NCBI GenBank assembly: GCA_027604185.1
Contig: JADGKB010000087.1
Coordinates: 1 to 62,183 of the forward strand
Length of the DNA: 62,183 nucleotides
Direction of reading: 5' to 3'
Origin: Boothiomyces macroporosus
Taxonomy: Eukaryota; Chytridiomycota; Chytridiomycetes; Rhizophydiales; Terramycetaceae
Below, piece by piece: positions 903-60,085 of this stretch (position 1 is its first letter; every line of letters starts with the position of its first letter). The notes under the pieces were generated by a model. The model was given only the letters and a program-made list of their open reading frames with translations. It searched no databases and was not told the DNA's origin. Both the position numbers and the translations under genes were made by a program.

Positions 903-1326
903 ATGAAGCAACACTCACTAGTATTTTGCCCAGACTGTGGATCATTATTAGACCAACCATCAGGAGAAGATGACCATGTAGAATGCTATTGCTGTCGAAC
1001 AGTAGTGCCAGCCTCTCGTACTTTATTTATAATGTAGAATTTGAATCGGTTGAAATTGTAACGAGAAGCAGACCAGATGTATTTTTAAACAAGCCAAAAA
1101 TTACCATGGAAGGAGCTGATAGACATAAGCATCTCAAAGAAGGGGCTACCGTAAATTACATTAATTCTAGATTCAAGACAAGTGTCCCAACTGTGGTCAC
1201 CATGAAATGGTCTTCCATACTGCTCAGTTACGTTCTGCGGATGAAGGTCAAACTGTCTTTTACAATTGTGTAAAGTGCGGGTAAGTTCATCGTTAATCTA
1301 GTCACAAGTACAGTATCAACTCTTAG
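903..1326 (+). CDS. RPA12: RNA polymerase I subunit RPA12 (TFIIS-like zinc ribbons)
   Basis: The spliced product has 120 aa and is the small Pol I subunit that supports RNA cleavage and termination. The N-terminal zinc ribbon shows CPDCG with a later CYCC pair. The C-terminal TFIIS-like ribbon reads [19 protein letters not shown] followed by [19 protein letters not shown], including the acidic DE pair that works in the cleavage centre. Introns are 1018-1037 (20 nt), 1151-1170 (20) and 1281-1301 (21). The third restores the expected C-terminal CGHKYSINS end, whereas unspliced translation stops right after CVKCG. This gene is the clearest single demonstration of the ~20-nt introns in this genome. 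Confidence 0.95.
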
Positions 1327-1395
1327 TCAATTTCATAATAAATTAATATCTATCATCGAATATTCCAAAGTGACGCAATTTTGACTTTCACGAAA

Positions 1396-3154
1396 ATGTC
1401 AACGCAGTTAAAACCACCTGCTAATAAAAAAATGAATGCAGGAGCAATAGCGCCAAAGTCGATTAGTACAAGTAATGTAAAACTAGTTACACCAAGAAGT
1501 AGAATTTTGAAGCTTCCTGAAATACAAAGGTCTGGCACTGTTGGAGATCTGGATAATAACCAAAAAAAGATAGAGTATGAGAATCCATTTCATATGCCTA
1601 CAGACGTAGAGGTTTTTGCACTAAGGGAGAATGATAGGAATTTAAAACGTCAGCAAAAACAAGCAATGAATAATATGAGTATCTATGAAAAACACTCTTC
1701 AAAGAAAAAGAATTTCAAAGCATTGCTAGCAGAAGACCAAGATGATATCGAATTTTACAAAGGAATTAGAAAAAGAGATGTCGACAAAGTCCTGGCAGCC
1801 CGACAGACGCGAGGCAATTGATTTTTAATGACAGCTGATAGACACTTGGGCAAGGAAAATCTACAAGATTTTATTGACAAGAAGAGAGAAATGTTTCTGG
1901 TTCATTACGCTCTTGGCGTTAAAAGGGACGAAATGCGAAAATTGGAAACAATCGCTCAAGTAATCCAAACTGACCAAAGAGAGAAGAGCAAAAACTGTTG
2001 GATGACGAAAAGGCTTTAGAAGAGGATGCGGCAAAGTTTGATGCATTTTTAAAGGAAAACGACAAGAATTCGGTGGAAGCTATAAAGAAAGCCGAAATGG
2101 AAACCAAAGCCAAACTGGAAAAAATCCAGGAAATCAAAAAGTTGAATGTGGCGATTATGAGTATACGTAGTGATATGACAAAAAATGAGGATCAGCTCAA
2201 AGATTTGCAAAGATACAGGCAGTTCTTGGACAAATTGACTCCAGCAGAATTCTTGGCTTCAAAGAAGGTTGATAAAGCTAATATAGAAAGAAGTTCCAAA
2301 AGAAGAGCCAGGAAAAATGAAAAAAGGAGGTTCACAATCAAAACTACTTGATGACGATAAAAAGGATTTAGTATCGGATGATGATGAACTATTAGAAGCA
2401 GATCAAGCATTAGTGTACTTCAAAACTCCAGATCAACTACTTGATATTTTTGCAGAGTTGGAAGAAAATAATTTGGCAATGATTCAAAACTGTCAAGAAA
2501 CGGAAGAAACATTGGAAGAGTTGAAAGCGAAAATTGCCGAAACTACAGCAAAGATGGAAAACGAAACTGCCAATCTGAATCAACAGATTGAATTTTTGAA
2601 TATTGCCATTGCAAAGGAAGAAGAAAAAGCAAAAATGCTGGAAGAAAGAGCCAAGTAACCAAAACTAACTTAGAATGTTTTCTTCTGGTGCAATGGGAGG
2701 AGACTCTCAGGAAAAAATGCTTGATGATTTGAACCACAAAGTAAAAGAGGTTTATAGAAGATGCCTTGGTGATACTGACGGTGACTTGTCAACTTTACAG
2801 ATGTTGACTAGCATCGAAAACCGTTTAGAGCAACTCTTTGAACAAATTGAATTGATGCCACCGGATAAAGTTGAAGAAGCAGAAAAGATGAAAGATAAAG
2901 AAAGGAGGCAGAGGTTAAGAGAAGAAAAACTGGAGGCACAAAGAGCGCTGCAGGAAGAAAGAGTGCAAAGGGCTTTGGAAAGAGCTCGCGCTCCTGTAAA
3001 GAAAAAGGTATTCAAAATTAATGCAGACTGGAAAACCTGTCGTTTTTAGATCTGCACCTCCTCAAAAGAAGAAATTAGAAGAGCATGATACGAAAAAGAA
3101 GGAAGAAGGTATTTTCTGTTAACTTTAGAGGATTTGGAGTATTACTGGAGTTGA
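1396..3154 (+). CDS. CFAP100: CFAP100/CCDC37-like ciliary coiled-coil protein (DUF4200)
   Basis: The spliced protein is 546 aa and mostly charged coiled coil. A motif NPFHMPTDVEVFALRENDRN, then KREMFLVHYALGVKRDEMRK and LEEDAAKFDAFLKENDKNSV, match the CFAP100 (CCDC37, Chlamydomonas MIA-type) family, which anchors the inner-arm dynein I1/f on axonemal doublets. Six introns of 19-21 nt are at 1814-1834 (GC-AG), 1960-1979, 2268-2286, 2655-2673, 3008-3026 and 3109-3128. The last only affects the C-terminal few residues and is less certain. ATG 1396 is the first in-frame ATG. Related DUF4200 proteins (CFAP73, CCDC38) are the alternative, but the N-terminal NPF motif favours CFAP100. This gene implies a motile flagellum. 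Confidence 0.85.
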
Positions 3155-3218
3155 ACATTACGTCAATAAATTATAACAGTGAATAATTAATGTCCAGTGC
3201 TGTTTTCGTAAAAAAAAA

Positions 3219-5550: not shown

Positions 5551-5577
5551 ACCAAATAAATCATAATACAACAATAT

Positions 5578-9136: not shown

Positions 9137-9184
9137 TTGGAGAAAAAAGAATTTACGTGGCTTGTGCTTTTCACTAAATCTCTA

Positions 9185-12023
9185 ATGTCTAAAAAGAATG
9201 ATGATGACAAGGGTAATTGCTTTTAACCCAGATTCCAACCCATATACGAACCTAGAAAAGAGCGCAGTGTTCCAAGAGGCCCGCGTCTTCAACGAGTATC
9301 CAGTTAATCCAAAGAAGTGTCGAATCGTACTAACGAAAATCGTCTATCTCTCACAGACGCAACCGTTTCAAACAAAGGAAGCGACAGACATCTTTTTCTC
9401 CATTACTAGATTATTCCAGAACCAAGATGCAAGTATTTATTAATAATAGGTTCCCTTGAGGCAAATGGTGTACTTGGCAATCAAGGAGCTATCCTCAGTC
9501 GCTGAAGATGTGATGATGGTCACTTCATCAATTACAAAGGACATGAACGCAAAAACGGATTTGATTTACAGACCAAACGCAGTCAGAGCACTAACGAAAA
9601 TCACCGATGTAGAAACTAATTAACAGTAGGCTTCAATGATGCAAGGAATAGAGCGTTTTATCAAACAATCAATTGTGGATCGCAATCCGTAAAATGTTTC
9701 TAACACAAAGAGCTGTTGCGAGTGCAGCGTTGGTATCTGCTATTCACCTGTTCCCATTAAACAAGGATGTAGTAAGAAGATGGGCAAATGAAACACAAGA
9801 GGCAATCAATAGCAAGGGTGTCTCTGCCCAATATCATGCCTTGGGATTGCTCTATCAAATGCGCTCTCATGACAAAATGGCTGTAATCAAATTGGCTCAT
9901 AATTACGCAAAGGTATACTAATTTAACATTAGGGGTCTCTCAGATCACCTCATGCTGTTTGTATGTTGATTAGATATGTATGGAAGATCATGGATGAAGA
10001 ATCCCCTCAGTAAGCCAAAACTAATCAAGAACGCATTCTTTATATGAATACTTGGAAAATTGGTTAAGACACAAAAATGACATGGTTGTTTTAGAGGCTG
10101 CTAGAGCTATTTGCAATTTGAGAGATGTTACACAAAAGGAATTATTCCCAGCTGTTTCCGCTTTGCAATTGTTGCTAGTTAATCATAAAGCCTCGCTTAG
10201 ATTTGCTGCAATCAGAACTTTGAACGTGTTGGCGATGACTCATCCTGCTGCTGTTTTCCCATGCAACTTGGACTTGGAAAACCTTATTACTGATTCCAAC
10301 AGATCAATTTCTACATTTGCCATTACCACATTACTTAAAACAGGAAACGAACAAAGTGTTGATCGTTTGATGAAACAAATTGGAGGATTCATGTCTGAAA
10401 TATCTGATGACTTTAAAATTATCGTTGTAGATGCAACCAGAACATTGTGTTTAAAGTTCCCTGCAAAGCATGTGTCCATGTTGGCATTTTTGAAGGATAT
10501 TTTGCGCGATGAAGGTGGTTATGAATACAAAAAAGCAATCGTAGAAGCAATATTTGACATTATTCGAAATATTCCTGAATCTAAAGAGTCTGGTAAAACC
10601 AAATTAATGCAGCTTTGGAACATTTGTGTGAATTTATTGAAGATTGTGACTATGCTAAACTCGCTGTTCGTATTTTGCATGTGTTGGGAGCTGAAGGACC
10701 AAAAACTAAACAGCCTACAAAGTATATTAGATATATCTACAATCGCGTCATTTTGGAAAATTCCGTTGTTAGAGCAGCTGCTGTTTCTGCTTTGGCTCAA
10801 TTTGCTGAACATTTGGATGATGCTCGTGAACGCATCAAAATTCTATTGGAAAGATGTACAGACGATAATGATGATGAAGTCCGTGATAGGGCTGTAATGT
10901 ACTTGAGAATTATAAACAATAACGAGCTCTCTAGAAAGTATATTGCGAATGGTAATCACTCTTTTATTTAGATTCGTCATATTCTTGGCAAGCGTTGGAA
11001 GCTTCGCTCAATCGCTATGTTCAAAATCCAGCCGAGCATTCCGTTCCATTTGATATGAGCAATATTCCAGTTGTAAGCAAAGCCCAAGAAGAAATGGAAA
11101 ACCAACGTAACCGAGATTTAAAGATAGGCAAAAAAGCTGAAAAGAGTGAGTTGAATATCTCTGGAGCAGTCCCAGTAAAGGAATCTGTGCAAGAGGAAGT
11201 TGTACACGATTATGCCACTGCTATGACCGAAATTCCACAACTTGCACAATTGGGCCGTTTGTTCAAATCATCCACTCCAGTGCAACTTACCGAAGCCGAA
11301 GAAGAATATGTCATTTCTTGCGTGAAACATGTTTTCCCAGAGCACTTTGTGTTTGAGGTACCTTTCATTTCACGTTAGTTTGTTTGCAAGAATACCTTGA
11401 ACGACTGCATTTTGGAAAATGTTCGAGTGGCAATGAGTGTTGAAGCCAGTGAAGATGAATCCATCCAATATTTTGTTCCACAGTTCTGCATACCAGCCGA
11501 CAAATTGTTGTATAACACCCCAAACTCGGTGTATGCTGTATACAAAAGAGACAATCATGTCACACCAACAGGCAAATTTAGCGTCACTCTGGAGTTTGAT
11601 TTGCACGACTGCGATCCAGACTCTGGAATCGTTGACGAAACCTCTTACCCAGACAAGTACCAACCAGAATCAATTGATGTATACACTGGAGATTACGTTC
11701 TTCCTACATATATTTCCTCTTTCGAAGAAAAGTGGGAAGAACTCCCAGCCCTCGCAACTGAAACCTTTGCACTTACCGATGTTAAATCCATCAAACAGGC
11801 TGTTGCTCAACTTGAAGAACAAATTGGTATGCGTCCAATCGATGCTGTAATTAGAGAAGCTCCTCGCACTCAGATTTGCATGGGTGGTACCTTTATTGGT
11901 GGCGAAGTCTGTCTGGCGAAAGTTAATATGGTGCTGTCTCCAAGTGAAGGCGTTACAATGCAACTCAACATAAAATCAAGTCACGAAGAGTTGAGCGATA
12001 GACTTGCCAATTCAGTTGAATAA
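9185..12023 (+). CDS. SEC21: Coatomer subunit gamma (COPI)
   Basis: The spliced protein is 884 aa, the expected length. It is the gamma subunit of COPI coats in Golgi-to-ER transport. The HEAT-repeat trunk is highly conserved ([85 protein letters not shown]). The C-terminal appendage follows ([13 protein letters not shown], then the platform ending [17 protein letters not shown]). Nine introns occur at 9213-9231, 9429-9449 (GC-AG), 9609-9629, 9689-9710, 9913-9932, 10010-10029, 10593-10612, 10952-10971 and 11358-11378, all 19-22 nt. Joining them gives a continuous family alignment with no gaps. The start ATG gives [16 protein letters not shown]. Confidence 0.97.
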
Positions 12024-12071: not shown

Positions 12072-13361
12072 TTAAAGTTCATTTTCAACAACAGCGGCGA
12101 CTCCCATACCGATACCGACACACATGGAGATCAAACCATACTTTTGCTTTTGTCTTCGGAGTTCAGGAAGCAAGGTTGCGATTTGACGAGCACCAGTAGC
12201 TCCCATAGGGTGACCGAATGCGATGGCACCACCTTTTGGATTTACTTTGTTGACATCAATGCCCAATTCTCTAACACAATATACAGCTTGGGATGCGAAT
12301 GCTTCGTTGATTTCGTATACACCAATATCACTTTGCTTCAAACCAACTTGTTCCAAAACAGCTGGAATGGCAACAGCTGGACCGATACCCATGATTCTTG
12401 GTGGAACACCGACAGCAGCGTATCCTAACCATCTGGCTTGGACCTTCAATCCGAGTTTGTTGGCCAAGCTGCGGCGCATCAACAAGACAGCAGCAGCACC
12501 ATCGGTGACTTGTGATGCGTTACCTGCGGTGGTGGTACCATCCTTCTTGAATGCAGGTCTGAGTTTGGCAAGTCCTTCAGCGGTAGCTCCACGGATTCCA
12601 TCATCTGAATCTACGACAGTTCCGTTGGAAAGGGTGACTGGAACAATTTCTTCCTTGAACAATCCTTCCTTTTGAGCCTTGGCAGCTAAAGTGTGGGATC
12701 TCAATGCGAAAGCATCTTGTTCAGCTCTGGTAACGCCAAATTCTGCAGCAACATTTTCAGAAGTGGTTCCCATAGGGATAAGGCTATGATTAAACTTGAA
12801 ACTTACACGTCCGCGGCTGGCCCGTAGTTCAAAACATCTTCGCTGAGGTCAGATGGCATAGCTCCAGGGCCGTAATACATGGTCATAGATTCAACACCAG
12901 CTCCGATACCACAGTCGATGTATCCAGCTTGAATGGCAGCAGCGATTGCACCACAGGTAGCCAAACCGCTGGAGCATTGTCTGTTAACAGCACAAGCAGC
13001 AGTAGTTTCAGGGAATCCAGCATAAAGAGCAGCCATACGAGCAGTAGTAACACCAGCTCCAGGCATCAAGACGTTTCCGACTTGAATATCTTCAACGATC
13101 TTTGGTTCAATACCGCTTTGTTCGATAATTCCCTTTAACACCTTAGCCATGATAAATTCAGGGTGAGTTTCACGGAATCCACCTTTTCCAGCTTTGGTAA
13201 GAGCAGATCGAAGTGCAGAGACGATAACTACATCATCTGGAGATTTAGGTGCTTTGGCTAGCGAATTAACCGCAAAATTTACCTTTAGGAACTCCGGCTC
13301 CAGATTTTGGGCCGCCCAAGTGGGAGGTAATACTTTCAACACGACGGTTAGCTGATGACAT
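12072..13361 (-). CDS. POT1: Peroxisomal 3-ketoacyl-CoA thiolase with PTS2 signal
   Basis: The spliced enzyme is 413 aa and performs the last step of beta-oxidation, thiolytic cleavage of 3-ketoacyl-CoA. The first exon encodes MSSANRRVESITSHLGG, which holds a PTS2 (R-V-x5-H-L), so import is by PEX7. Catalytic residues are visible: the acyl-accepting Cys in NRQCSSGL, the His in NEAFASQ plus GGAIAFGHPMGATGARQ, and the second Cys in MCVGIGMG. Introns are 13258-13282 (25 nt) and 12784-12806 (23 nt). Reading without the first intron loses the PTS2 and gives a false start. It converges on SEC21, leaving 48 bp between the stop codons. Confidence 0.96.
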
Positions 13362-13572: not shown

Positions 13573-16500
13573 CTACAACCAGGGTTTCGCCGAGCAAATA
13601 TAATACTTGGTGCCCTTTGCCAAGCCATAGCTATCATCGGAATCACCAGCAGTTTGGCTATCTACTTTAATCAAGAATGCCAGGATCCATTCACGTTTTT
13701 TGTATCGAGATTGGAATCCATTGTGTGAACTGATGTCTAAAAAGTAATTTGGGCTATCTACATGGAATGCAGCCCACACTTTTGGATTCTTTGTTGGAAC
13801 AAAGAGACACAGATCGTTCGGCTGGAATCTACAATTAACTCGCACTTGCCTTTGGAATGAAATTCTACGATAGATTTCCGTTTTGAAAAAATTATATGAT
13901 TCTTTGAATTCTGTGATCGTGTTTGCTGGAGATACCGACGATATTTGCATTGCTTTATCATAGATGGATTTCATAAGAGAATTGGTGGCAGTCAAGTATT
14001 GGTCCAAGTCCTCTGGAAAAGTTTCAATATCGATATCCAATACATCTGAAAATTTCAATTTGTATGCATTGGAAGGAGATTTCAAGAGCGAATCTAGAGC
14101 ATTCCATTGGGTGTATTGAATTTCAAATTGTTCGATGCATAGCCTTGCTACAATAGCCCAATCTTCGACTGCATTCTTGTAGGCAATTAGCTTTGAATCT
14201 TTTTCATGAACAAGAGTTTGAAGAGCATTGACTTCAGGATTATTCACGACCTTGAAATGCTGTTCTTGTAGTTTCTTTTCCAAGTCAGCATTATTATTCT
14301 TTGACTCATGGAGCGAGTCCTCTAATTCGGTTACTTTAGCTTCAAATTTCTCTATAGACTCTTTTTGAGCGGTAATTTCGGAAATGAGAGCTGTCAGCTC
14401 CTCTTTTTGTTTAACTTCAATTTCACTCTTCTTTTCCAACAGGATATTCACAGAATTGCATTCAGCTTCTAGTACGGCCTCGTGCGCTTGTACCCTGGTT
14501 AATTCGACTTCATTCTCACGTAATTGATTTTCCAAATCATTTATCTTTTGCAATAATGTTACTATTTCATTGGCAACGGTCTTGCTTTAGTAAACAATTT
14601 ACCTGTGCCTCATTACTTGCACCTACACTATCACTCAAAGAAGCTTTGTAACTTGCTAGCAAGGCCATTTGACTAATAACATCATCCTCCACTTTTCGCA
14701 TAAGTTGTCGAAGGTTATCTGCGTGTATTGAGTCTGGGATTAATATAGAGTCAAAGTGCACCACAGAATCATCAGTTGATTTTAAAGTATTTAAACAGGA
14801 ACTGAGATGTGTAGTAACTTCAAAGAGAAGCTTCTTTTGCTGCTCTTTTTCATTACGGATATCATTCAATGTATTATTCAGGTTTTCATTGTTTCTTAAC
14901 GACTACAGTCAATACAATCTTACTGCTATGTACAGACTTTCTAATTCTTTCTTTTCAGATAATGCAGTAGCGGATTTACTTTGTTCTTGTTCCAACTGAG
15001 TATTTAATTTCTTGTTCTCTTGCATAAGCTGGTTAATTTGCTGTTGAAGAGTGTTTGATTTGGTCTTTTCTTTCTCTAGTGCATTTTCCAATTGGGTTTG
15101 TTTCGCCAAATCTAGAGGGTCATCTTGAGATTTATGGTAATTCTCTTGTAAAAGTAATTCCAAACTCTTGATTCTATCCTCGTAAATTTTTATAGTATCT
15201 TCCTGTTTGCGATAATGATTCAGTTGTTCAGAACCCTTGTTTGGAACTTTTTGATCAATTGGGGACACAATATCTAACATTAGCATACATTACCTCCCAT
15301 TCTGGATGCTGATAGCTGCTGCTTTAATTTCTTGTTTTCCTCCTCTAATTTACGAGCCCTATCAGTGAGATTCGATTTGGTGACTATTTTTTCAAAATCC
15401 ACTGCAATATTATCCACCTGTGGTACCATTTTCAGCATAGTTGCCTGCAACTTTGAAATAGAGTCTGAGCCAACACTACCTTCGTGAGTAATTTGAGAAT
15501 TCCTGATTGCAGATACTAAATTTTCAAAAACTAAATTAGAAATTCCATCACCAGTGATATCTTCCAAAACTAGATTTGGAAGAGTGTCTTTTGTGTTAGA
15601 TACAGATATTTCACAATATGGAGGAGGGTCATCCAATCCAGAGATAAGCCCGTTCGGAATGTACCTTGCAATTTCATTTTTAAAAGTTTCTCTCCGCCGT
15701 TCTTCATTTGATCGAAATTGAGACAAGATGTCTGCCATTTCCTTTGCCTTTTTCAAGAATACACGAACATACTCTTTCCTTCTTACAATTTCAACCAAGG
15801 CTGCACCCCAAGCAGGCGCCATTCTATGCACATGTAAAAGTTGTAACAGAGCTTCAGATTGGATATTTAAAGCATTGGATAATGCTGTTATGGTTGGTAT
15901 TACTGAGGCTATCAGGGACTGATAATGAGAAATCGTCTGCAGTCTTCCTTTCAGGACTTGCGTCAAATGAACCTGCTTTAAATAATGAATACCTTTGAAT
16001 CTGAAAAATATACAACAGTTTCCCTTACATAGCGGTCGTATTGTGTAATTTCTGGGATATATTCATCAAGATGAATCCTGTATAGGTGCTCTATTGCTTG
16101 AAATTTCTGCGAGTTGGCGTCACTGTATGTTTGAAGTTCCCTGCAAACATTTTCAACTTTAATTGCATCCCTTTCGAAGTTGATTTGTCTAGCTTCCACT
16201 TTTTGGATTACTTCCTTTACAGAATTTAGCAAATTTTGCAATTTGGGAATACTATTGATTAACAACAATCTACTCTATTCCCGTCATTTTCAGTGCATCT
16301 GAATCACTCCCCAACTTGATATCTTGCATAGTTTCAACCAACTGTGAAGTTTTCACCATCAAGTGTTCGTGGGCCATTTGACAACGATTTACCCATGCAA
16401 ACAGTTTATCTTTCGGAACAAAATCATCCAGCTTCTTACTTTCAGCTACTATTGAACTATGTATTGGTATTTGATTCAAAGTGTTGAGATCGGCAGGAAA

Positions 16501-17195
16501 GCTTAATTAGACTGGGAATACCTTTGCAACAGAGCAGTGTGCTTGGAAAATTCTTTTTGAGCATGCTCATTGAAAGCATGAAAAGTTTCAATTGCGGAGC
16601 TATTTTAGAATCATATTACCTGCTATGGGTCTGTAAATTTTGAGCAGCGAGAGATAAAGCCTTGTCCTGTACCAACTGTTCGTCTAGTAACTTTTGACAG
16701 GTAGAATAATGTTTACGTACAATCTTTAACAGTTCCTTCCAATCAAAATATGTATACCTTTCCATATTGTACATGAGATCTGAATGCGGCCAAGTAGGAA
16801 ACCGTCAAATCTCCCCACTGGTCAGATATTTCCTCTGGAGGTACCGTAATTGCTTCCAATACAGCTGATATTAACCCAACTTACTGGTTGAAGGCACCGG
16901 TGGTTCGATATCAATCGACATGTGTGGAGAAATATGTCCGGCATTAGGATCCAATATTAATCTATTAAACAAATACAAGTCTTCCTAACAATCAAAAATA
17001 GTCCTACATTCGTATCTGGTGATTTGAGCTGTATTCCATTCCCTCCAAGTATAATTTGCGCTTCTATTGGGATTTTGGTCAGCTTTTCTATATCCGTTTG
17101 CAAATCCGATAAACTAAGATTAGTCAAGGTCCTGACTTGGTATAAGATTCCTTCAGTGGAATCAGCACTCCTGTTTCGGCTTGATATATTTTCAT
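13573..17195 (-). CDS. ATG11: Autophagy scaffold ATG11 (FIP200/RB1CC1-like)
   Basis: The spliced protein is 1129 aa. ATG11 organises selective-autophagy initiation by binding cargo receptors and the Atg1 kinase. The N-terminus is ubiquitin-like (MKIYQAETGVLIPLKES, then LTKIPIEAQIILGGNGIQL, EDLYLFNR). A long helical and coiled-coil body follows, and the conserved C-terminal claw is present (FQPNDLCLFVP, WAAFHVDSPNYFLD, KREWILAFLIKV, YGLAKGTKYYICSA). Eleven introns of 20-23 nt are at 17114-17136, 16985-17007, 16865-16884, 16736-16757, 16600-16619, 16502-16521, 16252-16273, 15973-15992, 15274-15293, 14903-14923 and 14581-14602. The start at 17195 is preferred over an upstream in-frame-looking ATG at 17247, because only splicing 17114-17136 gives a contiguous ubiquitin-like fold. 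Confidence 0.9.
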
Positions 17196-17470
17196 GAATT
17201 TGAGATTTGGAAAAGTTTGTTGGGCCCGAAAGTGTCATCCAGCTCATTGATCAGACTAAAATGGAAATCGTCTATGAGGTTCTTTTTGCGGTATTGGGAA
17301 TAAAGCGAATAAATATTATCCTGAAACCGGATTGAAATCTGCTTCTGGATGATTTACCTTCCAGCCTTCGAGTGCAATATCATAAGTGATCTAAATATAA
17401 TATTAATATTTTTATTTTGCATGCAACTATTGTTCTTCAGGGAACACGTCAGCAAACCTTTCTCTCACAA

Positions 17471-39430: not shown

Positions 39431-40119
<689 letters not shown>

Positions 40120-46000: not shown

Positions 46001-47448
46001 AAAGCATTTGGCTAATTTCATTAACTATATCACTGTCCTCAGAGGTGAAGAAAGCGAGCTTGTCTTGCAAACTCTGTCTTCTAATCTGAGAAGCAGTAAG
46101 GGATGCGTTGGTACCAATAGGTAACTCTTTTTTCTGAGGCAGAGTATCTACACCAGTGCCAATCCAGGCATTTCTTTCCAAACAAACTTTCTTTAAATAC
46201 AATATTCCCCTGGTTAACCAATAATCCACGTCAGGATCCACATAGGCCTTATTTTGAAGCAACAGTTGAACTGCTTGCTTTCTTCTAGACCACGCGGCAA
46301 CCATAATTGCGGATCTTCCTTTTCCTGGCCCACATCTTAAATTCACATCACATTTTTCATTGATTAAATACTCAATAATCGTGCTGTATCCTGAATGAAC
46401 AGCAGCAATTAATGGGGTCATTTGCCCTTTTGGGATTGGCAGTTTTTCGTTCTTGTACTTTGGAACTAAACCATCCACATTCGCTCCAGCAGCTCTTAGT
46501 ATCTTTACCACTCGAAATTTTCCGCCAAGAGCTGCCCATACAAGCGCGGTATTTCCATAATTATCAGCTGTATCCACTTGGCTCCCCCGCTTCAAAATTT
46601 CCTCGACCAACGTCAAATGTCCCTTGTAAGCGGCTTTCATCAAAATAGTGACTCCCTCTTCATCCGAACTTTCAATTGTTTCCGGTTTTAACACTGCGCA
46701 AAGCTGCTGCTCATATCCCATATATGCAGCATCTGTTAGCGCCATAATCTTGAGCTCCAGGGACTGAACCAGCATTTCTCTCCCAACAACATCCACAGGT
46801 TCCGTTGCTGCATTTTTGGATGATTTCACTATAAACTGTCCAGATAAAGCTTGGAAATTCAGGGCAGGATCCTGGGACTTTATCTTGTCCTCTGTCACAG
46901 ACTCATCCTTTTTCTTGATGAGAGGCTGTAGCTTTTTGCCATCTTCTTGAACAGCTCCGCATTGTATTAATGTATTTGCCACTTGGGTGAATCCCATTAG
47001 CTGTGATATTGATAACGGTGTCACTCCACTTTTGTTTGCGATATTTGGGTCCGCGCCTTTTAATAGTAATAGACAAGTCATGACCTTTAATTACAATATA
47101 GTTACATGGTCGTTCTGCGAAGCTGTCAAATGTAAAGGTACATTTCCATTGACATCTATGGGGCTATTGACAGAATTGAAAATGTTTTGAGCTTTTTTTT
47201 GGCAGTACAGTCTTACCGTGTCGATATTTCCTTCCTTTTCGTTAATAGAATTTACTTTACAGAGCTCCATCATTTTCTTGCATCTTTTATCTTCGTCTTC
47301 TGGGGATTGCGGACATTTTAATTTCTCCAAATCTACACCAATAGAAGGGGCTGATGTGTTTGATTTTGGCGGGCTTGGGTTAACTGTAGGAATACCCTGT
47401 ATCTCTCTTTGAGGTCTTGACAAAGTTCCACTTTGCGCTCTTGTCCAT
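43018..47448 (-). CDS. Ankyrin-repeat Ras guanine nucleotide exchange factor
   Basis: The spliced protein is 1428 aa. The N-terminal ~400 residues are ankyrin repeats (LLLLKGADPNIANKSGVTPL, DNYGNTALVWAALGGKFRVV, MTPLIAAVHSGYSTIIEYLI). A long helical centre has two similar WPPPDAVSEMIREAASLA and WPPPNAATEMLQSTIPC segments, which look like an internal duplication. Then come a RasGEF_N region (YDETGTFKKVKGGRLTKLVE) and a CDC25-type catalytic domain (DFTFWIATCIVNNDTLKARL, LNNLTAVTTIVAGLTMGPVG, FLGVFLTDLTFCELGNPDFL). Seven introns are at 47374-47395, 47085-47105, 45851-45869, 45342-45361, 44376-44395, 43671-43692 and 43561-43580. It should activate a Ras-type GTPase. The ankyrin fusion is unusual for yeasts. 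Confidence 0.92.
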
Positions 47449-48672: not shown

Positions 48673-50124
48673 ATGGCAGACGAGCTCGATCTTTCAGCAT
48701 TAACACCACTCTCACCAGAAGTTATTTCCAGACAGGCTACCATCAATATCGGTACGCATAGTTTTACATAGGTACAATTGGACATGTAGCGCATGGGAAA
48801 TCAACAGTAGTAAAAGCGATTTCTGGAGTACAAACTGTTCGTTTTAAAAACGAATTGGAAAGAAATATTACAATCAGATTAGGTTATGCAAATGCAAAAG
48901 TAATTTTCAATTAACGAGATTTTCAAATGTGATTTTGATGGTTGCCCTAGACCTGGATGCTACCGCTCTTTCAAATCCGACAAGGAAGAAGGATTTCCCT
49001 GTGAAAGAGTCGGATGTATGGGACGAATGAAGCTGGTTCGGTATGAAATTGCTAACAACAGTCATGTTTCCTTTGTGGATTGCCCTGGGCACGATATTTT
49101 GATGGCAACCATGTTAAACGGAGCAGCTGTGATGGACGCTGCATTTTTACTGATTGCTGGTAATGAAATCTGTCCGCAACCACAAACCTCTGAGCATTTG
49201 GCTGCAATTGATCTCATGAGACTGAAGCATATCATCATCTTACAAAACAAGATTGATTTAGTTAAGGAGGAGGCAGCAAAGGCACATTACGAATCCATTT
49301 TGAATTTCGTCAAAGGAACTATTGCTGATCACGCTCCAATTATTCCGATTTCAGCCCAACTAAAATACAACATTGATGCAGTCAATGAATACATTGTCAA
49401 AAAGATTCCTATTCCCGTTAGAGATTTCACTTCTCAGCCAAGGCTAATTGTTATCCGTTCATTTGACGTCAACAAGCCTGGTGCCGAAATCCATGAATTG
49501 AAAGGTGGTGTAGCTGGTGGTTCTATCTTGTCAGGTGTATTGAAATTGGGAGATGAAATTGAAGTTCGTCCTGGTGTAGTCAGCAAGGACTCTGAAGGCA
49601 GAACAGTTTGCCGTGTGATTTTCTCTAAGGTTATTTCATTGTATACTGAACAAAACGATTTGAAATTTGCTGTGCCAGGTGGCCTTATCGGTAAACTTCA
49701 TTAACATTAGGTGTGGGTACTAAAATTGATCCTACTATTTGTAGATCTGATAGATTAGTCGGTCAAGTGTTGGGAGCAGTTGGAACTCTTCCTAAAATTT
49801 ATACAGAATTGGAAATCAATTATTTCCTTTTACGTCAATTACTTGGTGTAAAGACGGAGGACAAGAAACAGACCAAAGTCCAGAAACTTGCAAAGAATGA
49901 AGTACTTATGGTAAACATTGGATCTACCACGACCGGTGGTCGCGTATTGTCGGTGAAGGCAGATATGGCCAAGATTATCCTCACCTCACCTGCCTGTACA
50001 GAAGTTGGTGAACGTATCGCTCTATCTAGACGTATTGACAAGCACTGGAGGTAAGTTTATGTTTAACAAAAGATTAATCGGATGGGGTAAAATCAAGAGA
50101 GGTGCTTCTATTGAGCCAGTCTAA
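48673..50124 (+). CDS. GCD11: Translation initiation factor eIF2 subunit gamma
   Basis: The spliced protein is 456 aa. It is the GTPase that carries Met-tRNAi to the 40S subunit. G-domain motifs are [19 protein letters not shown], the Zn knuckle ([17 protein letters not shown], and further CERVGCMG), [20 protein letters not shown] and LQNKIDL. Domain II and III follow ([71 protein letters not shown]). Introns are 48752-48771, 48900-48918, 49691-49710 and 50051-50072 (19-22 nt). Confidence 0.97.
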
Positions 50125-51198: not shown

Positions 51199-52322
51199 AT
51201 GCCAACAGTCAAGAAGCAATGGGAATTTGGGGACGACGAAATGGCAGATACACCATCGATCCAACAAGGCTTTTGTATGAAAAAGGAAGCCGACCTCAGA
51301 TTGCGTGCTTGTAGAATAATTGAGAGAGTAGGAAAGAAATTGGGAATGTAATACTCACTTTAATTCAGGCCACAAGATCAAATCAACATGGGAAAAATTT
51401 TGTTGCATCGATTTTACATGCGTTATTCATTACAGCAAGGGGAGTATCATGAAGTCGCTGCAACGATACTTTTCATCGCCAGCAAGTTGGGTTCTGGCGC
51501 CATTTCAATCAAAATCGAAAAAATCATCTTGTACTGTGCAAAAGATGCAAAGAAAGATGGCCCAGTCGATATGAATGAAAACAACAAGGTTAGTGAGACA
51601 TTTTATTGCAGGAATTTCGCTACTGGTGGAACGCAATTTTTGGATTGGAAGAAATAATACTGCATCGTCTGTGTTACGATGACACACCTGCTCTTCCGCA
51701 TCCAAAAGCAATCGCACTTGTAAAGGATTTTAATGGTAAGAATGGATAATTTTTTTAATTTCGAAACGAAATTAAGAAAATCATTCAATCAGCATTTATT
51801 CTTTAGGCTCCAAACATCTTGTACAAAGTGCCTTTTTGTACTGTAATGATGCGTGAGTTTTTTCTCTAATCTCAGTCTCTGTACCACATTAGCTGTTCGA
51901 TATTCACCAGAAATGATTGCATACGCTGCAATATACGCTGCATGTGAATCTAGTGGGGAAGAGTTAAAGACTCCCCATGGAACTCTATGGTGGCAAGCAA
52001 AGAGACTTGACGAATCTTGTTTAAAAGGTGCGATTAAGGACTAATAACAGTTTTGGCAATGGAAATTGTCATGGCTGCTGAAAGTAGATTCACTTGTCTT
52101 GTCATTGATAAAGTTATTCAAAAATTAGGTATTAGAAACGCAACTAATACTGTAAATTGTATACTAACCCAGTCTCCGCAAGTTCCTGGAACTCCATTCA
52201 CGTCCTCTTCTGTTTTATCGACTTCTCCTGATGCTAGCATTGGAGGATACAAGTATAAAACTGAAAAACCAAAAGAGCGACATCATCCGTATCAAAAACC
52301 TGTTCATACCCGTAATTTTTAA
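51199..52322 (+). CDS. Cyclin K/T-like cyclin of a transcriptional CDK
   Basis: The spliced protein is 320 aa with two cyclin folds: LRLRACRIIERVGKKLGMPQ, GKILLHRFYMRYSLQQGEYH, EVAATILFIASKLG, then LVQSAFLYCNDALCTTLAVR, YSPEMIAYAAIYAACESSG. HRFYMxxS and NDxLCTTL are typical of cyclin K/T/Pch1, partners of Cdk9/Cdk12-type CTD kinases. Introns are 51348-51368 (21), 51589-51611 (23), 51736-51806 (71), 51853-51875 (23) and 52028-52050 (23). The 71-nt one carries a perfect 9-bp inverted repeat with a 3-nt loop. ATG 51199 is the first Met in frame. Confidence 0.87.
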
Positions 52323-52352: not shown

Positions 52353-53376
52353 TTAAACCTGTAGTATTTTCATGAATGGTTTGAAGAACATCTCCAATAT
52401 TGGGTAAATGACCTTGTAAGCCTTGTAGCTGAAGCTCTTCTCGTGCATTCGTCTAACAGCTTCGCGGTACTTTACGAGAGAATCATAAAGATGCAACTTT
52501 GCTCTCTTTTGCTCCGCAATCAAGCTCTGTAACTTGCCGAAATCTCGCTCATGCTCTAGAAGCCCTTTACATCTTCTTACCAATTCGTCAGCACTGAAAT
52601 TTAAAGGAGAATGAACCCACCCTATAAAGCAAGGATTCATCAAGCATCTAGTGATTGCCTAGATTAACAAAGAATACCTTGATCTCATTTTGATTGAAAC
52701 ATGGCGAGCCAAAGGTTGCTATTCGCAATATCAGTTCGAAAGGCAGTGGCAGACCAATCCTGTACAAGTTTCTACAAAACATCAGGTATTCTCTAGCATC
52801 TCTTAGTCGCTTCTTTTTGTTTCCATCGCATATACTGTTTAGTGTGTTTAGCAAATCTTCACTAATATGGTTATCTTGTAATTGAACTGTAAAGAATTCA
52901 TTTTGACGAGTCAATTCACAGCAATCAGCACATCCCTTATCGGTTATACGGTTATTGGATAAATTCAATGTAATCAACCGAATATTGATGCCAAACAAGC
53001 TTTTAAGCACAGCGATAGCATGGTCATTGATATTATTGAATGATAAGTCTAAATGAATCAAATTTGAGTTTGATTTTATATGTTTAAATATTTGAATTGC
53101 TCCATGGTCTGTAATGAAATTACGCGACAGGTCTAAATGAATGAGATGCTGGAACAGCAGAGGAGGCATCTGAAAAATGCTGAGATCTGATAATTGGTTT
53201 GACCATACAAACAGGTACTGAATGCTCTTTTTTAAATCCGAAAACATGTTTGACTCTCCCAATTTGTTTTGATAGAGTATCAAATGAGATGTCGTTTCCG
53301 GAATTTCGTTAATCATCTCTTGGGATATCGCCTTATTGGTGATTTTAAATATTCCTGTCGGTTCTGTTTCTCGCAT
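52353..53376 (-). CDS. Leucine-rich-repeat protein with F-box-like C-terminal segment
   Basis: The spliced protein is 334 aa. Ribonuclease-inhibitor-type LRRs fill residues 70-190 (LIHLDLSRNFITDHGAIQIF, LIHLDLSFNNINDHAIAVLK, LITLNLSNNRITDKGCADCC). A segment LPLPFELILRIATFGSPCFN resembles an F-box helix pair. A 19-nt intron at 52659-52677 adds a helical tail (FGKLQSLIAEQKRAKLHLYD, KAYKVIYPILEMFFKPFMKI). The target or partner is unknown. An F-box role would mean a place in SCF ubiquitin ligases, but this rests on weak similarity. It converges with the cyclin gene, leaving 30 bp between the stop codons. Confidence 0.8.
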
Positions 53377-53414: not shown

Positions 53415-56164
53415 TTATTGGAAACTATGAACATTCTTTCCGGGAAATTGATCTGGCGCAAATTCTTGGAAGTGAGATCTATCATCTACTGTTAGCCAGG
53501 ACATACCTTTCGGACTCCATCGTTGAAAGTTTTGGTTATAAAATCCAGGAGGACCTCTAGATGATTCCCACTTTGCTTCATTATCTCCAATATCTTGCAA
53601 TATCTTAGATACAACATTGTTTGAGGCATTATATTCACTAAATTCGTCGGCAAATTCTGTCATCAAAATTTTACGATCAGCTGCATTTGGTGTAAAGGCA
53701 TTCGTCATCCCTAGACCACTAAATGAAGGTTTAACAAATGAATTCCACGCCTGTTGTGTATATTGTGGTTCTCTTTGCTGATCATACCTTCCATCCCAAG
53801 ATCTCATAGGAGCGCTTTGATTTGGAGGGTGTCCCAAAGTTGGCGAGATTCCACTTTTCAATTCCATTCCAGGTGACAACATTGAAGGGTTTGAGTGCAT
53901 CATGTTTCCTTGGGGTCCTGATTGATTCATTAGCTGTGCGGTTGGTCTAGCAGTTGGACCGGATTGAGCATTTGAATAAATATGTTGAGGAGCGTTATGT
54001 GGGGGATGTGACGGTACTCTATGCAGACTATGCTGGAGTCCGTTCATGCTGGCACCTCGATTATTCTGGAATTCATTTAACTGATGTCCACGAGCACTAT
54101 TTCCCAATCCGGAAATTCCCATAGTGTTCAATCCATTTCCAAGACCAGTGTTTTGAACTGGCAAAGAATGGTTCATTTGCATCAATCTCTCTGCCGACGG
54201 AACTCGCATATTATTGAGATCCAAATGGTTTCTAGGCATAGTGTTTATCGCATTCATCGGTATAGGACTGATGTGTTGCATATTTATAGGTAATATGTTA
54301 CTTTCTGGTATCAATTCTACTCCCAGCTTTGATGTTTTAGGCTGAGATTGAAAATTCATCTCAGTATCATTTCCAGGATGGTATTTTTGGCTCTCTGGAA
54401 TGTTGGTTTTTGCATTCATAAAGAATTGCTTCACGCTTGGTGCCAATTCATCGTCATCGAGACCAGGGGGACTTGACTGAATACCAGTGGAATATCTTGG
54501 GGAGCTGGCTCCTGAGGAGTTTCCGGATTTGATAATTTCTACTGATTTCTGAGTGTTGAGCTGAGGCTTCTTTTGTTTTTTTGATTTCTTTTCCTTTTTA
54601 TCTACAAGTTTTTCTCTTGAATTGACTGTTGCGAATTTTGGGGTAAACTGCGCTGCTTCATTTGCGGCTTTCTCCTTCTCCCTTTCCAGTCGCTGTTCGT
54701 TGGCTCTTTTGACAACTTCATCCTTTTCCTTTCGCAATCTTTCTTCCTTTTCCTTTCTCAACCTTTCTTCCTCAGCCTTGCGATTGGCTTCATTTATAGC
54801 CCGCTGTACTTTTTGAGCGGCCAAAAGCTTTGCCTTTTCTTCAGCTTCCTTTTTGGCTTTGGCGAATTCTTCTTTTCTGCGTTGTTCTTCTTTTTCTTTT
54901 CGTAGCTTTTCTTCCGCAAGCTGCCGTTGACGTTCTTTCTGGAGCTCTTTTTCCTTTTGAATTGCATCTTGGCGTGCTAATTCCGCAATGCGAGCGTCCT
55001 CTTGTGCTTTAATTTGTCTTATGCTGAAATTAGAACACTGAAACCTTTCTTCTCTTAGAATTCTAGCCTTTTCCTCAGCTTCTTGCTTCTTTTTGAGTTC
55101 AAGCGCTTTCTTTTCTTCCTGCTGTCTCTGTTTCAAATTGCGTTGCTTTTCCCTCTCCCGTTCCAATTTCTTTTGTTTCGCTTCCTCTTTCAACCGTTTT
55201 TGGGTTTCTTCTTCTTCCAACTCTTGCACTAACTTTGCCGCCCTCTCCATAGCAGCCTATGATTAGCAAACACAAACTTTTTCACGGTAGGCAGTTAACA
55301 CCCGCTGTTCAAACATTTTCGCAGCGAATAGTTGAAACATTCGTCTCCCTTCCTCTATCTTTTGCTGGTCACTTAAATGCTCTTCGCTTTCGTAACCATC
55401 CGAATTTGATTCCTCATACTCTTCATCTTCATCGCTAGGCACACTGTCCCTATCTTCAATTGGCGGTCTATTTTTCTTTTGCGCCAGTTGCTCCATGAGA
55501 TCAAGGAATTTCTGACCATCATTTTTAAGAAAATCATCCGCAACTGTTAAAATTCCACCTTTGTGAGCTATTAGTTACCTTTAACTGTCAGACTGGTACC
55601 GAATTCCATGATTCCAGAGTCTTCCGATTCCGACCCCTCTTCTTCGTAATCATCCATGTGATCCTCTTCCTCCTCTTCTAGATGCGGAATATGGCTATGG
55701 TGATGTGTGTGATAATCGAGTGCATGCGGATGCTGTTGATAGGACTCTGGGGCAGAAATTTGCATATTGGAGAATATTTCCAACTCTTCATAGTATGTGT
55801 TGTATAATAGCTCGAGTTGACTTTCAATGTCGCTCCTTGAGTTAATTGATTAGAAACCTCCTTCTCCCACATACATTGCACGAGCAGGTCTGCTTTTGCT
55901 GCTCCTTCATTTTCTTTAGGACTGCTTCTTTTTCCAGTTTCACAAGCTGCTTCCTTTCCTCCTCGCCGAGTTGAATCCAGAAATCTCTTATCCTCTGGCG
56001 CTCTGCCTCGTCGCCTATTTCCCAGATATCATCCTTCTTCTGAGGTTCCATTTCAGCCTTTTTCTTTTTAGACTTTTTCGAAATGCTTTGTTCTGGCTTT
56101 ATACAATTGCTCTACGAATTAAACCTTCTTGTACTTTCATTTGCCGGGCTTCTGAAGTTAGCAT
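53415..56164 (-). CDS. NST1: Stress response protein NST1
   Basis: The spliced protein is 880 aa. The conserved NST1 core is [66 protein letters not shown], followed by acidic [13 protein letters not shown] and a long Lys/Glu/Arg/Gln coiled coil, then a Ser/Pro/Asn/Met-rich tail. Family members tune salt-stress responses and localise to P-bodies. Introns are 56112-56134, 55836-55857, 55559-55578, 55257-55277 and a stop-free 21-nt one at 55024-55044. The last, if retained, would insert seven residues (RFQCSNF, plus a junction change) into an otherwise pure K/E/R/Q coil, so I take it as an intron. Confidence 0.93.
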
Positions 56165-56268: not shown

Positions 56269-59200
56269 TTAGTGGAAAAAGTATCTACTGTCCCGCACTA
56301 CTCCGACATTGAGTTCCCCTCTCTTGGGAAGCGGTGGAAGGTCAAATGGGATCCAATATTTTATGACCTTTTGCTTCCTCTTTTTCGGATAAAGTTGACT
56401 GTATTTTTCTCTCTGCTCATCATTGAGTGTAATTTTGACTGCGATGCGATGAGATTTATAGCGAGTGAGCAATTCTTCCCTTAGTCTTTCCATAATATTC
56501 TTTGAGTGCAAGCGGACAAATGTCTCTCGTAAAAGAGTGCTCATCGAATCAACATCGCATGCATGAGTCCAATATGAGTCATGAACTGCTGCGAATGTAA
56601 TGTTACTTTGGTTACATGCTAGCGAGGTGAGCATCATATGGGATGCATCCAAAGAGTGCACAAAGTTTGGTGGGAATGCAGATGCTTGTTTCGAAGGATT
56701 TACAGGAGTAGCTCGTGAGGAATCAATCAATTTAAACGTTTGCATGAATGTTTTTACCTAAATTTAGCTAAAGAGCCACCTCCATGGTATTGAATTTTCT
56801 GTAAGGTTGTACAATTGGCAAGCCTAAAGGGGTGGTCCATGTCATTGAAGTCATTTTTGCTGGTTCTTTCTTGTTTCTTTTGATTACGTTCAATATTTCT
56901 TTTTCGTTCAAAGGATCTTCCTCTTCCAGCAGATCAAACTCATTCTGGTCTGAAAAGTCGGAATCTTCTTTTACTGCCTCTAAAATAGAATTGATTTGAG
57001 AATTTTCTGTGTTAGACTGAATATTCTCTGCAGTTTCATCTGTTTTGTCTGGACTTTCAATAATCCCAAGTTTCACCAAATTAGTGTATATTTCTAATTG
57101 GTCCTTGGCAATTTGGCTCTCTGGGATACTTTTTGTAACAATTTTTGCAGCATCCGTCAACCAAATTTGAATTTCCCTAGCACCTTCAAACATATCTTTC
57201 ATAGCATCAAATACTTTTCCTGTGATATATCCAGCACATTTTTTCATTTGTTCATCTGTTAATGCAGTTTTTGGGTCTTCGTTCACTCTAGCCTCTTTAA
57301 GTCTTGAATGAATCTGATCTCTGGCTCCAATTCTCGTCACACCATACGTATTGGTCATTACTGTTTGCTTGACCAATTTTCTATTAATTCGATTTTTCAT
57401 TAATAAGGCCTCTGGATGGTTTGACAAACAGTCTTGATCTACTTTTTCCTGCACTAACTTTGCTACTCCGGTGTAAACATCCCCAGGGCGGTCAGAAGGT
57501 ACCAAGTTCACTGCCTTTGCACCAGGAACGTCACCACCTAATGCTGCATAGTGCTGTAAACCGTTACAAGAACCGTCTTGATGAATAGGCAACCCGCATT
57601 CATATGTGGTAGGATCTGCCAAATCCATCGCGCTTTCTAATTCAAAACAACCAGCTAGGAGTTGCCATGGCTTATCACCTTTCAACCACCATTTTTTACC
57701 CTTTTGGTCAATTAGCAGTTACATTAATAGGATCTCTTGCAGAATCCAAGATGTTTTCCAAATTGTCCTCTGTGAATTTGCATCTTTCGTCCATAGAAGC
57801 TCTAAAGTTAATTCAGATTACTTGTCAAAACCATACAGGTTGGAAATATGGATTTTCAGCCATCTTAGCCCGGATTCTCCCAGCGGTTTTCTTTCATAAA
57901 ACATCAAAAGACCCCTATTGATATCATTACCCATATGGTTCAAGTGTGGTGGTAACGGGTAAGCACGACCTCTGAAATCGAGGTTATGTGGAAAGTAGAT
58001 TTTTTCGCCCAAGAAAGACTTTGCAATATCCAGCTTGTAGTTTGTGTTGCATCTTTCCGAAAAGGCGTTCTGGACCTTGTGCTGCCTTTTTACTTTTTCT
58101 GCTTGGTATCTCTTTTTACTTTGTGGATTGGTATCAACATCCTCTGGAATTGGAATCTCTGGTAAATTTACCAAGAGTGGAATGCCAGGAGCCTCAACTC
58201 CTTCGTTCCAAAACCATGATGCGACTTTAAAGATCTTTTCATTTACTTTCCAAGCTGTAGAGCCTAAAACATCAAGCGAGCGCATAACTGATGATAAATG
58301 ATCCTTGTCTGCGGCTGCCTTTAGGTAATCATTGTGTTCTTCATTGTTTACTACACGAACTAAAGGGAAACGATGTTGCAAGTATCCGCCAGAGTGTAAG
58401 GTTATCCATGGGAGAGGTGCTACAAGCATAGGTAAACTCCATGGATAAACTGATGTAAATGAATTGGCCAGTAGGTCATGTAATGCATTGTGAATTTTCA
58501 GCATATTGTAAGATTTCTCCTTTTTCCATTCCGTAACAATTTTGAGAGCAAGAATATGATCTGTACGAAAACCAGATGGCGAATCTGGACATGTGATCTT
58601 GATAGGCAGTTTGATGGTATTAACTGCAATATTCAACAAAAACGACCCAACATTGACGATATTCCTATTACCCCAATCTGGGTTCCAACCTAAAGATTTA
58701 CCCTCTTCATCATTGGACAGTTTGGCTATGGCTTTTCGTAATGTCATATTGAACAGTTTTCCTGCAGAGTGTATCTTATGAATGTGACGTTGAAGGTTCA
58801 ACTTGTATTAACTTTAGTTTACCTGTCGAAGGTTGCTCTTTCTATTCATTTGCTGCAAGTTGTATTCCCTATGAATAGAGTTACCAATTGATAAAACCAT
58901 ATCAATGGTTCGAATCTGACCAAATGATTCCTTGTTTTTCGATGATGTTGTTCCTGGAAATTTCATTAATTCAGTGATTGTAATCCTTGCCAGTATATCT
59001 GGGGTAAGAAGCCTAAGAAAGTTTACATATTCCTGATCTTCTTTTGAAGGGTCTAAAGTTTGCATTTCTGTTTCGATTTTTTCTTTGAGACTTTCGTGCC
59101 ATTGTGTAATCAAGTCCAATGGTAATTGATTGACTGCTTTTTGACTTTCTGGGATAGTTTTTTGCATCTCCTCGAATTGTTCCTGGGCGGCCTGGTATGC

Positions 59201-60085
59201 TCTCTGTTCCAACCAGAGTTGCTGGCTGTACTTGTCTAATTCAGTAATATCTTTTTTTCCCATAAGAGTTTTTCTGAGAATGGAAACACCGATTGTGTCT
59301 GTTGGTTTAAGCTCTATTGAATCTTCCAGGTTTTCGTTTTCGTCATTATCTGCAGACTCTTTGATAGCAGACAATATCAATGAGTCAACAGTTGTTGGTG
59401 GAGCAATTGATTTACCCATTTGCTTCAAGACTGCATCCAAAGCCATAAATTCGCTCTCTTCCTCAAACAGTGGGTCCTCTATCAACTGCTTGACGGTAAA
59501 TTTTTCCTTCTCCATTTCAACAATCTTTTCTTGCGCTGCTTTAATGTTGCCAGATTCTAAAAAGTAGGATATAAATAATGCAAAAGTATGGCAGCCTGGT
59601 TTAACTTGAAATTCTATTTGCATGGACTTGAACCATTCCAGGGCACGGATTTCGAAAGACCTAGAATCCGGATTTTCTTGGTCCTGTAATTGCAGGGCCA
59701 ATAGATTTTCTATAAACTTTTCAAATACTTTGCAGTCCAGTATCTTTTTCATTTCAATTCTATTTGTTCTCCATACTTTATGAAAGATAAATTCAGCTTG
59801 ATCAATATCTCCGACATCCATTGCTGCATTCATGGCAGAAATCTTTTCCATTAAACGAGAGTAATTTAGCGACTTGTGCATCGATAGCACTTCGATTGGT
59901 AGGACTGGCTGCTCGAGCTGAACCAAGTGGTTTGACTTTGGGAATAATTCATCAATGAAATTTTTGTCAATCGCCGATTCCACCTTCTGAATTGGTATAG
60001 GACTATTCACTACCTGTGGATTTGCTATTGGTGTGAGTGACGAGTATTTCAGTATTGAAATTGACCTCCTCTGTAACCGCAACAT
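56269..60085 (-). CDS. RPO41: Mitochondrial DNA-directed RNA polymerase (T7-like, RPO41)
   Basis: The spliced protein is 1243 aa. A presequence (MLRLQRRSISILKYSSLTPI) and a PPR-like N-terminal region precede the T7-type core: FPHNLDFRGRAYPLPPHLNH, HQDGSCNGLQHYAALGGDV with the metal-binding Asp, the O-helix RKLVKQTVMTNTYGVTRIGA, and SAFPPNFVHSLDASHMMLTS with AAVHDSYWTHACDVD near the second Asp. Introns are 58802-58822 (21), 57802-57821 (20), 57701-57722 (22) and 56758-56779 (22, GTGG donor). The last links LPIVQPYRKFNTMEV to KTFMQTFKLIDSS. Without it an apparent frameshift appears. It transcribes the mitochondrial genome. Confidence 0.96.

Follow-up and report, generated by a model that had tools for sequence, protein, structure and literature searches.

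The predicted introns of the fungus Boothiomyces macroporosus, as seen in contig 87 of its assembly and in stretches of 20 other contigs, fall almost entirely within 19-25 nt. Contig 87 was analyzed entire and is referred to here as the window (62,183 bases; the assembly has 216 contigs and a total length of 15,203,306 bases). We consider it highly probable that these segments, including those that form tandem arrays, are spliceosomal introns of the U2 type, reduced to a single unit of almost constant design and removed by a largely canonical spliceosome. Such a unit would run from a GTA donor (rarely GC) over 13-15 nt to a YTAAY-like branch A and over another 5-6 nt to the terminal AG, so that a polypyrimidine tract would not fit behind the branch. 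The case is built from lengths, motifs, reading frames, the spread over contigs and homology in the genes checked, all of them read from DNA, with splicing deduced from these. A preliminary description of the window had called it a fungal genome with about 100 introns, 19-25 nt being the rule. Protein matches to Boothiomyces and the taxonomy (Chytridiomycota, Rhizophydiales, Terramycetaceae) agree with the first point, and gene models place 100 units in the window. The length rule held at the sequence level in the window, in 20/20 stretches from other contigs and in the spliced alignment of a gamma-COP gene.

Length and internal signals of the introns

To count intron-like segments we used the pattern GTA...[CT]TAA[CT]...AG at lengths of 12-80 nt on both strands of the window, with 10 dinucleotide shuffles and the sequence read backwards as controls. 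There were 14, 19, 17 and 12 segments of 19, 20, 21 and 22 nt, respectively, compared with 3.1, 2.8, 2.8 and 2.6 per shuffle; at every other length the count was 10 or less. (The backward-read control is weighed below.) The intron sample comprised the window and 20 stretches of 10 kb, one each from contigs 1-20 (262 kb, 21 contigs). Run with a length prior that was flat over 8-300 nt, and with GT..AG as the sole motif requirement, a gene finder placed 190 introns in this sample. Of these, 76 were 19-22 nt long, with at most four at any other single length.

A trained gene finder was then given three options: single units of 16-27 nt, arrays of units separated by spacers of 0-6 nt and, against a fixed penalty, GTA..AG introns of 28-300 nt. 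Note that GC donors were allowed only as GCAAG, so that other GC-AG introns may be missed. The final run predicted 146 genes, 109 of them intron-bearing, with 347 single introns and 3 arrays, making 355 units at a density of ~1.7 introns per coding kb. Their lengths were as follows (all units; units in the window, at 271-58822):

18 nt: 1; none in the window
19 nt: 73; 13
20 nt: 139; 36
21 nt: 87; 24
22 nt: 39; 18
23 nt: 12; 6
25 nt: 4; 3

The remaining 255 units were spread over 20/20 of the stretches from other contigs. Thus, 355/355 units on 21 contigs were 18-25 nt long, single units being limited to 16-27 nt by the model, and no intron of 28-300 nt was chosen in the 262 kb. In an earlier run of the trained finder that allowed neither arrays nor GC donors, 9/301 introns were longer than 25 nt. 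Those at L017 and L019 became arrays, those in the window and at L030 GC-AG introns, the one at L013 two ordinary introns, and the one at L025 an open frame. Gene ends now fall at L018, L023 and L028, so long introns there remain candidates. Two long introns and an uncertain 16-nt case in the preliminary description were not needed in the final models.

The branch A was preceded by 13, 14 or 15 nt in 343/355 units, close to the donor-branch distance of 12-14 nt proposed earlier, and followed by 5-6 nt in 305/355 under a rule mildly favoring 5-6 nt to the end. With a learned motif free of that preference, the values were 271/292 and 238/292, respectively. YTAAY occurred in 225 of the 355 units (TTAAT 84, TTAAC 58, CTAAT 54, CTAAC 29), and among the top 20 motifs the others were mostly near-variants. 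The YTAAY-like motif is complementary to the U2 snRNA found in the genome, as in U2-type introns. The borders, 349 GT and 6 GC donors with terminal AG, were imposed by the finder and are backed by gamma-COP homology; the window GC-AG introns lie at 9429-9449, 13829-13849 and 31061-31082.

Among the 349 GT donors, +3 was A in 314, +4 was A in 205 (0.39 bit) and +6 was T in 193 (0.38 bit). Position +5 carried little information (T 149, A 75, G 68, C 57; 0.11 bit), and +5 G was found in only 9/82 flat-prior introns of 18-25 nt, which had been picked without a donor motif. On the exon side, -1 was G in 171 and -2 was A in 199. Geometry and the exonic donor positions, not +5 G, may be the main basis of recognition.

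An apparent stop-codon signature in introns of 3n length (55/59 at first) proved to be a detection artefact, because ~20 introns of 21 nt without a stop had been taken for coding sequence; it vanished once the missed introns were added. Among the intron-like segments of 15-30 nt left in the first-round coding regions, 22 were 21 nt long and every other length had 0-4, as expected if stop-free 21-nt (3n) introns had been read through. In the final set, 60/84 single 21-nt introns had an in-frame stop. As this matches the fraction of 0.67 expected from composition, and 21-nt introns are common, a Paramecium-type pressure on 3n introns is not visible.

Since the introns were read from DNA only, the segments might instead be passed over by the ribosome during translation or excised at the DNA level. 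This is extremely improbable: the borders are GT/GC-AG, the branch motif matches the U2 found and keeps a near-fixed distance, and the genome encodes U1, U2 and U6 RNAs, all of which argues for splicing.

Homology checks and the splicing machinery

The gene models were compared with homologous proteins for two genes of the window:

9185..12023, plus strand: gamma-COP gene, 877 aa, ten introns at 9213-9231, 9429-9449 (GC-AG), 9609-9629, 9689-9710, 9913-9932, 10010-10029, 10593-10612, 10952-10971, 11107-11127 and 11358-11378; identity by homology, and nine of the ten introns by length-free spliced alignment
48673..50124, plus strand: eIF2-gamma gene, introns 48752-48771, 48900-48918, 49041-49061, 49691-49710 and 50051-50072; alignment to yeast and human eIF2-gamma

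The best match of the gamma-COP protein was Coatomer subunit gamma-2 of Boothiomyces macroporosus. We aligned 5 of 120 fetched homologues to the DNA under a scheme that charged the same for any intron of 8-400 nt. Three of them (P0007, P0008 and P0012) gave an identical set of nine introns of 19, 21, 21, 22, 20, 20, 20, 20 and 21 nt, including one with GC-AG borders. P0005 departed only at the first intron (13 nt), and P0023 lacked the first intron. The tenth intron, 11107-11127, was not used by the spliced alignment. It is translated as NRDLKIG in the deposited protein P0001 and is gapped in 7 other aligned homologues, most clearly in the nearest, P0002.

Could each true intron be longer and take in several segments plus short bits of exon, as the public gamma-COP model has it? 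Residues encoded by 10010-10068 (59 nt by our reading) are missing from P0001, whose N terminus is also shortened, and the Terramyces protein P0002 is without similar pieces. However, the omitted sequence LYEYLE...WLRHK is kept in 6/7 other aligned homologues, all except P0002, and spliced alignment puts it back using 20-nt introns. The deposited LUC7 protein of the same assembly (P0121) is itself consistent with introns of 20, 20 and 19 nt. Longer introns are thus very improbable, and the errors of the public gamma-COP model are explained, judging from the sequence, by a predictor that left out exons and translated an intron. In spliced alignments of LUC7, 'introns' of 87-183 nt in the low-complexity tail and variants of 23, 26 and 106 nt with more distant homologues were taken as alignment noise. 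With its short introns removed, eIF2-gamma aligned to the yeast and human proteins over ~450 residues. The lone 7-residue insert corresponded to a missed 21-nt intron, 49041-49061.

A search for U1, U2 and U6 found canonical RNAs. U1 begins AUACUUACCUG, each of two U2 genes carries GUGUAGUA, and the one U6 gene carries ACAGAGA. As the U1 and U6 sequences are canonical, the weak +5 position is unmatched by a change in either. SF3B1 and SMU1 are present, as is U2AF2 with its RRMs (RNA recognition motifs), which fell below the NCBIfam cut-off in the six-frame search. SF1 and PF05971, the family of METTL16, stand as profile matches, because no gene model of either was recovered with one strand of each locus scanned. 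The LUC7 profile gave three matches, all within one gene on contig 74 that the source names Luc7-like protein 3. The core components searched for would thus seem canonical. The earlier suggestion that spliceosome assembly is modified in this lineage therefore fares unevenly: U1, U2, U6, U2AF2, SF3B1, SMU1 and the SF1 match look largely canonical, the weak +5 and the single Luc7-like 3 gene differ, and modification remains a conjecture.

In human cells, LUC7L and LUC7L2 favor donors that pair strongly with U6, and LUC7L3 favors donors whose exon part pairs strongly with U5 (PMC11732430). The combination of a weak +5 and an LUC7L3-type LUC7 suggests a parallel with Paramecium bursaria (PMC12862383). 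By analogy with human cells and Paramecium, the single LUC7L3-type protein may take part in donor recognition. SMU1, whose gene is present, would probably relieve the short donor-branch distance, as judged from human work.

Tandem arrays of complete introns

The two 'long' introns at L017 and L019 resolved into abutting complete introns of 19+19+19 and 21+22 nt. Thus, further whole introns would stand directly behind a unit with no exon between, which is possible because each unit carries all its own signals. A genome-wide pattern for abutting pairs matched 10 times, at 8 places, and had no match in the backward-read control. From the sensitivity of the pattern on single units (0.0356 for a pair), the genome contains, as a rough estimate, some 200 arrays. 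An array scan by unit score alone was unspecific (1187 units with 5 pairs, compared with 1222 units and 2.2 pairs per shuffle). Identical matches also lie tens of kb apart on one contig (G000:C20:66642 and C20:111709; likewise kinase matches on C65 and on C10) and are perhaps segmental duplications or assembly doubling.

We read eight array contexts, two from the sample (one also found by the pattern) and six of the other seven pattern places. By our reading, removal of the whole array restores the frame in 8/8; on contig 14 this requires a third 20-nt unit. At G000:C8:114397-114453 (L046:447-503), three 19-nt introns abut, the first two of them identical. This sequence speaks clearly for recent tandem duplication of a whole intron, so that at least one array would have grown in this way. 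That arrays arise by duplication in general was considered and is unsupported beyond one array. A 38-nt array interrupts a GID4-like gene where relatives in the PDB run on with a one-residue gap in the best alignment, and a 39-nt array an OGG1-like gene where they run on without a gap. The OGG1-like array rests on this homology, because the frame would be open if the array were retained. For the METTL2-like gene with three 19-nt units (L017), the homologue alignment lies only downstream of the array. Three consecutive 20-nt introns stand at L047 (+) 355-414, in what we take to be a Sel1-like repeat gene. At L026 (+) ~9063-9155, the finder placed an array of three units with 3-nt spacers; reading on gives four units of 20-22 nt with an ATG after each. 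Spacers chosen by the finder were 0 nt twice and 3 nt once, with no other length.

More than one intron is removed at a single exon junction also in stwintrons and in recursive splicing. Stwintrons are nested, and recursive splice sites with zero-length exons lie in long introns. In contrast, the arrays read here consist of complete units of 19-22 nt that simply abut, and none is nested. We regard the arrays as the most novel part of the finding and make no claim that they are absent from print.

Most likely, arrays are removed unit by unit. Alternatively, a single splicing event may span an array from its first donor to its final AG and take it out as one intron of 38-60 nt, a rival that we hold to be the less probable one by a fair distance and yet take seriously. 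A donor-branch distance of ~32-54 nt would better suit a standard spliceosome, the human minimum being ~50 nt (PMC6692369). However, free splicing at such lengths predicts single introns of 28-60 nt without inner signals, and none was chosen in 262 kb. Candidates of 38 nt (L018) and 47 nt (L025) without an inner AG-GT junction did appear in the earlier run; later, L025 became an open frame and a gene end fell at L018. Arrays found by the pattern say little on one-step removal, because their inner signals are kept by construction. L019 and the third unit of L047 were picked otherwise than by the pattern, and are free of that bias.

A number of observations count against the view of these segments as minimal spliceosomal introns, single or in arrays. 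The window read backwards gave 13, 7, 13 and 19 motif segments at 19, 20, 21 and 22 nt, a total of 52 vs 62 forward; this control was high at most lengths (up to 21) and had no peak at 20. In the flat-prior run, 108/190 introns lay outside 18-25 nt, thinly scattered. Counts from the trained finder depend on the model, because its motifs were learned from the same sequence and single units were allowed only at 16-27 nt. Adjacent array units were more alike than random introns (P = 0.00085, seven pairs), with P = 0.17 when one array was left out (five pairs). The deposited gamma-COP P0001 uses other splice choices. The U1 score of 68.8 bits is just below the family cut-off of 69.5, and the PF05971 profile also matches bacterial controls. 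A search with the RED_N profile for RED, the partner of SMU1, gave no match, which is no proof of absence. The class of the LUC7 protein rests on the source name and on comparison with human sequences. Finally, the argument as a whole is made from sequence.

Genes of the window and comparison with other minimal introns

The other gene models of the window, based on the trained gene finder, are:

170..601, minus: gene; introns 271-289, 386-405, 485-505
903..1326, plus: gene; introns 1018-1037, 1151-1170, 1281-1301
1828..3154, plus: coiled-coil gene, presumably resembling flagellar CFAP100/CCDC37; introns 1960-1979, 2268-2286, 2655-2673, 3008-3026, 3109-3128
12072..13361, minus: gene, presumably thiolase-like; introns 12784-12806, 13258-13282
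13573..17238, minus: coiled-coil gene, presumably ATG11-like; introns 13829-13849 (GC-AG), 14581-14602, 14903-14923, 15274-15293, 15973-15992, 16252-16273, 16502-16521, 16600-16619, 16736-16757, 16865-16884, 16985-17007
17471..18804, plus: gene; intron 18494-18513
18845..20292, minus: gene; introns 19624-19644, 20005-20024, 20139-20159
20513..21351, minus: gene; introns 20816-20836, 21167-21186, 21234-21254
21403..22295, minus: gene; introns 21453-21475, 21612-21631, 21711-21730, 21958-21976, 22055-22075, 22183-22201
23341..24496, plus: gene, presumably a Zn2Cys6-type regulator; intron 23834-23855
24592..30001, minus: gene, presumably a myosin-headed chitin synthase; introns 25114-25135, 26040-26064, 26391-26412, 29204-29223, 29626-29645
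31055..33971, plus: gene; introns 31061-31082 (GC-AG), 31131-31151, 31554-31573, 31776-31795, 32390-32409
33995..34980, minus: gene; introns 34216-34234, 34310-34328
36754..38101, minus: gene, presumably acyl-CoA dehydrogenase-like; introns 37062-37081, 37357-37377, 37537-37555, 37761-37785
38311..39199, minus: gene, presumably eIF3f-like; introns 38503-38522, 38651-38670
39431..40065, minus: gene, presumably like the complex I 20-kDa subunit; introns 39511-39532, 39685-39704, 39934-39953
40230..41708, minus: gene, presumably a subtilisin-like protease; introns 41011-41031, 41159-41180, 41248-41269, 41566-41587
43018..47448, minus: large gene; introns 43561-43580, 43671-43692, 44376-44395, 45342-45361, 45851-45869, 47085-47105, 47374-47395
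51199..51749, plus: gene; introns 51348-51368, 51589-51611
51913..52322, plus: gene; introns 52028-52050, 52152-52172
52353..53376, minus: gene, presumably with leucine-rich repeats; intron 52659-52677
53415..56164, minus: gene; introns 53486-53506, 55024-55044, 55257-55277, 55559-55578, 55836-55857, 56112-56134
56269..60085, minus: gene, presumably mitochondrial RNA polymerase-like; introns 56758-56779, 57701-57722, 57802-57821, 58802-58822

The window also carries a tRNA-Cys gene at 3219-3290 (minus) and, at 60148-62181 (minus), a single open frame with two similar halves and no predicted introns, which we take to be exostosin-like.

Heterotrich ciliates, mikrocytids and a nucleomorph are already known to have introns of 15-21 nt as the rule (PMC10245619, PMC9505925). 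The preliminary description had listed Bigelowiella and ciliates as known minima, which we have taken up, and had left out the mikrocytids at 16-17 bp (PMC10245619). The chlorarachniophyte (Bigelowiella) nucleomorph resembles Boothiomyces in having tiny introns in a narrow range, 18-21 bp (PMC10245619), but is a relic endosymbiont nucleus with >800 introns, compared with a fungal genome of 15.2 Mb. In Stentor coeruleus, introns are 15-16 nt with five nt after the branch A in most, the most abundant intron starts GUAAUU, and the U6 ACAGAGA and U2 branch region are conserved (PMC9505925). The uniformity, donor start, ~5 nt after the branch A and conserved RNA regions are thus shared, whereas the branch A is at position 10 or 11 in Stentor and mostly at 14-16 in Boothiomyces.

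Paramecium bursaria has introns with a median of 24 nt, no consensus from +3 to +6 and SMU1; LUC7L was not identified and LUC7L3 is kept (PMC12862383). Boothiomyces shares the short introns, the weak +5, an LUC7L3-named gene and SMU1, but its +3 A is strong and its +4 A and +6 T are moderate. It also differs from Paramecium, whose 3n introns carry a stop-codon signature (PMC5014332), in lacking that signature. Mikrocytid introns are extremely uniform, a likeness to those described here, but these intracellular parasites have a strongly reduced spliceosome (PMC10245619), whereas Boothiomyces mostly keeps the core factors searched for. Microsporidia, relatives of fungi, likewise have short introns; in contrast, theirs are few and their spliceosome is reduced (PMC10245619). 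A survey of fungal introns cites Cryptococcus, with a mean of 63 bp, as a short-intron example (PMC8476143). Among the matches listed for literature on short introns, chytrids and Boothiomyces, there was no report of ultra-short introns in a chytrid, and look-ups by term in PMC5701793 and PMC8371127, on early-branching relatives, turned up no passage on intron length.

We propose, at odds slightly below even, that the spliceosome of Boothiomyces treats a block of 19-22 nt as one measured unit, and that whole introns multiply head to tail, with exons of 0 or 3 nt between them, and are still removed singly. If so, introns could be gained cheaply and visibly by duplication of units, as seems to have happened in tandem for at least one whole intron, and inner units could not be spliced by exon definition. 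Were a fungus and a ciliate both to combine a lost +5 G with an LUC7L3-only complement, the choice of LUC7 would be a repeated step toward minimal introns. With 13-15 nt between donor and branch, vs ~50 nt needed in human splicing (PMC6692369), and with the core spliceosome components searched for mostly retained, this fungus would offer a simple organism outside the ciliates, reduced endosymbionts and parasites in which to trace the lower size limit of splicing to particular components of the spliceosome.

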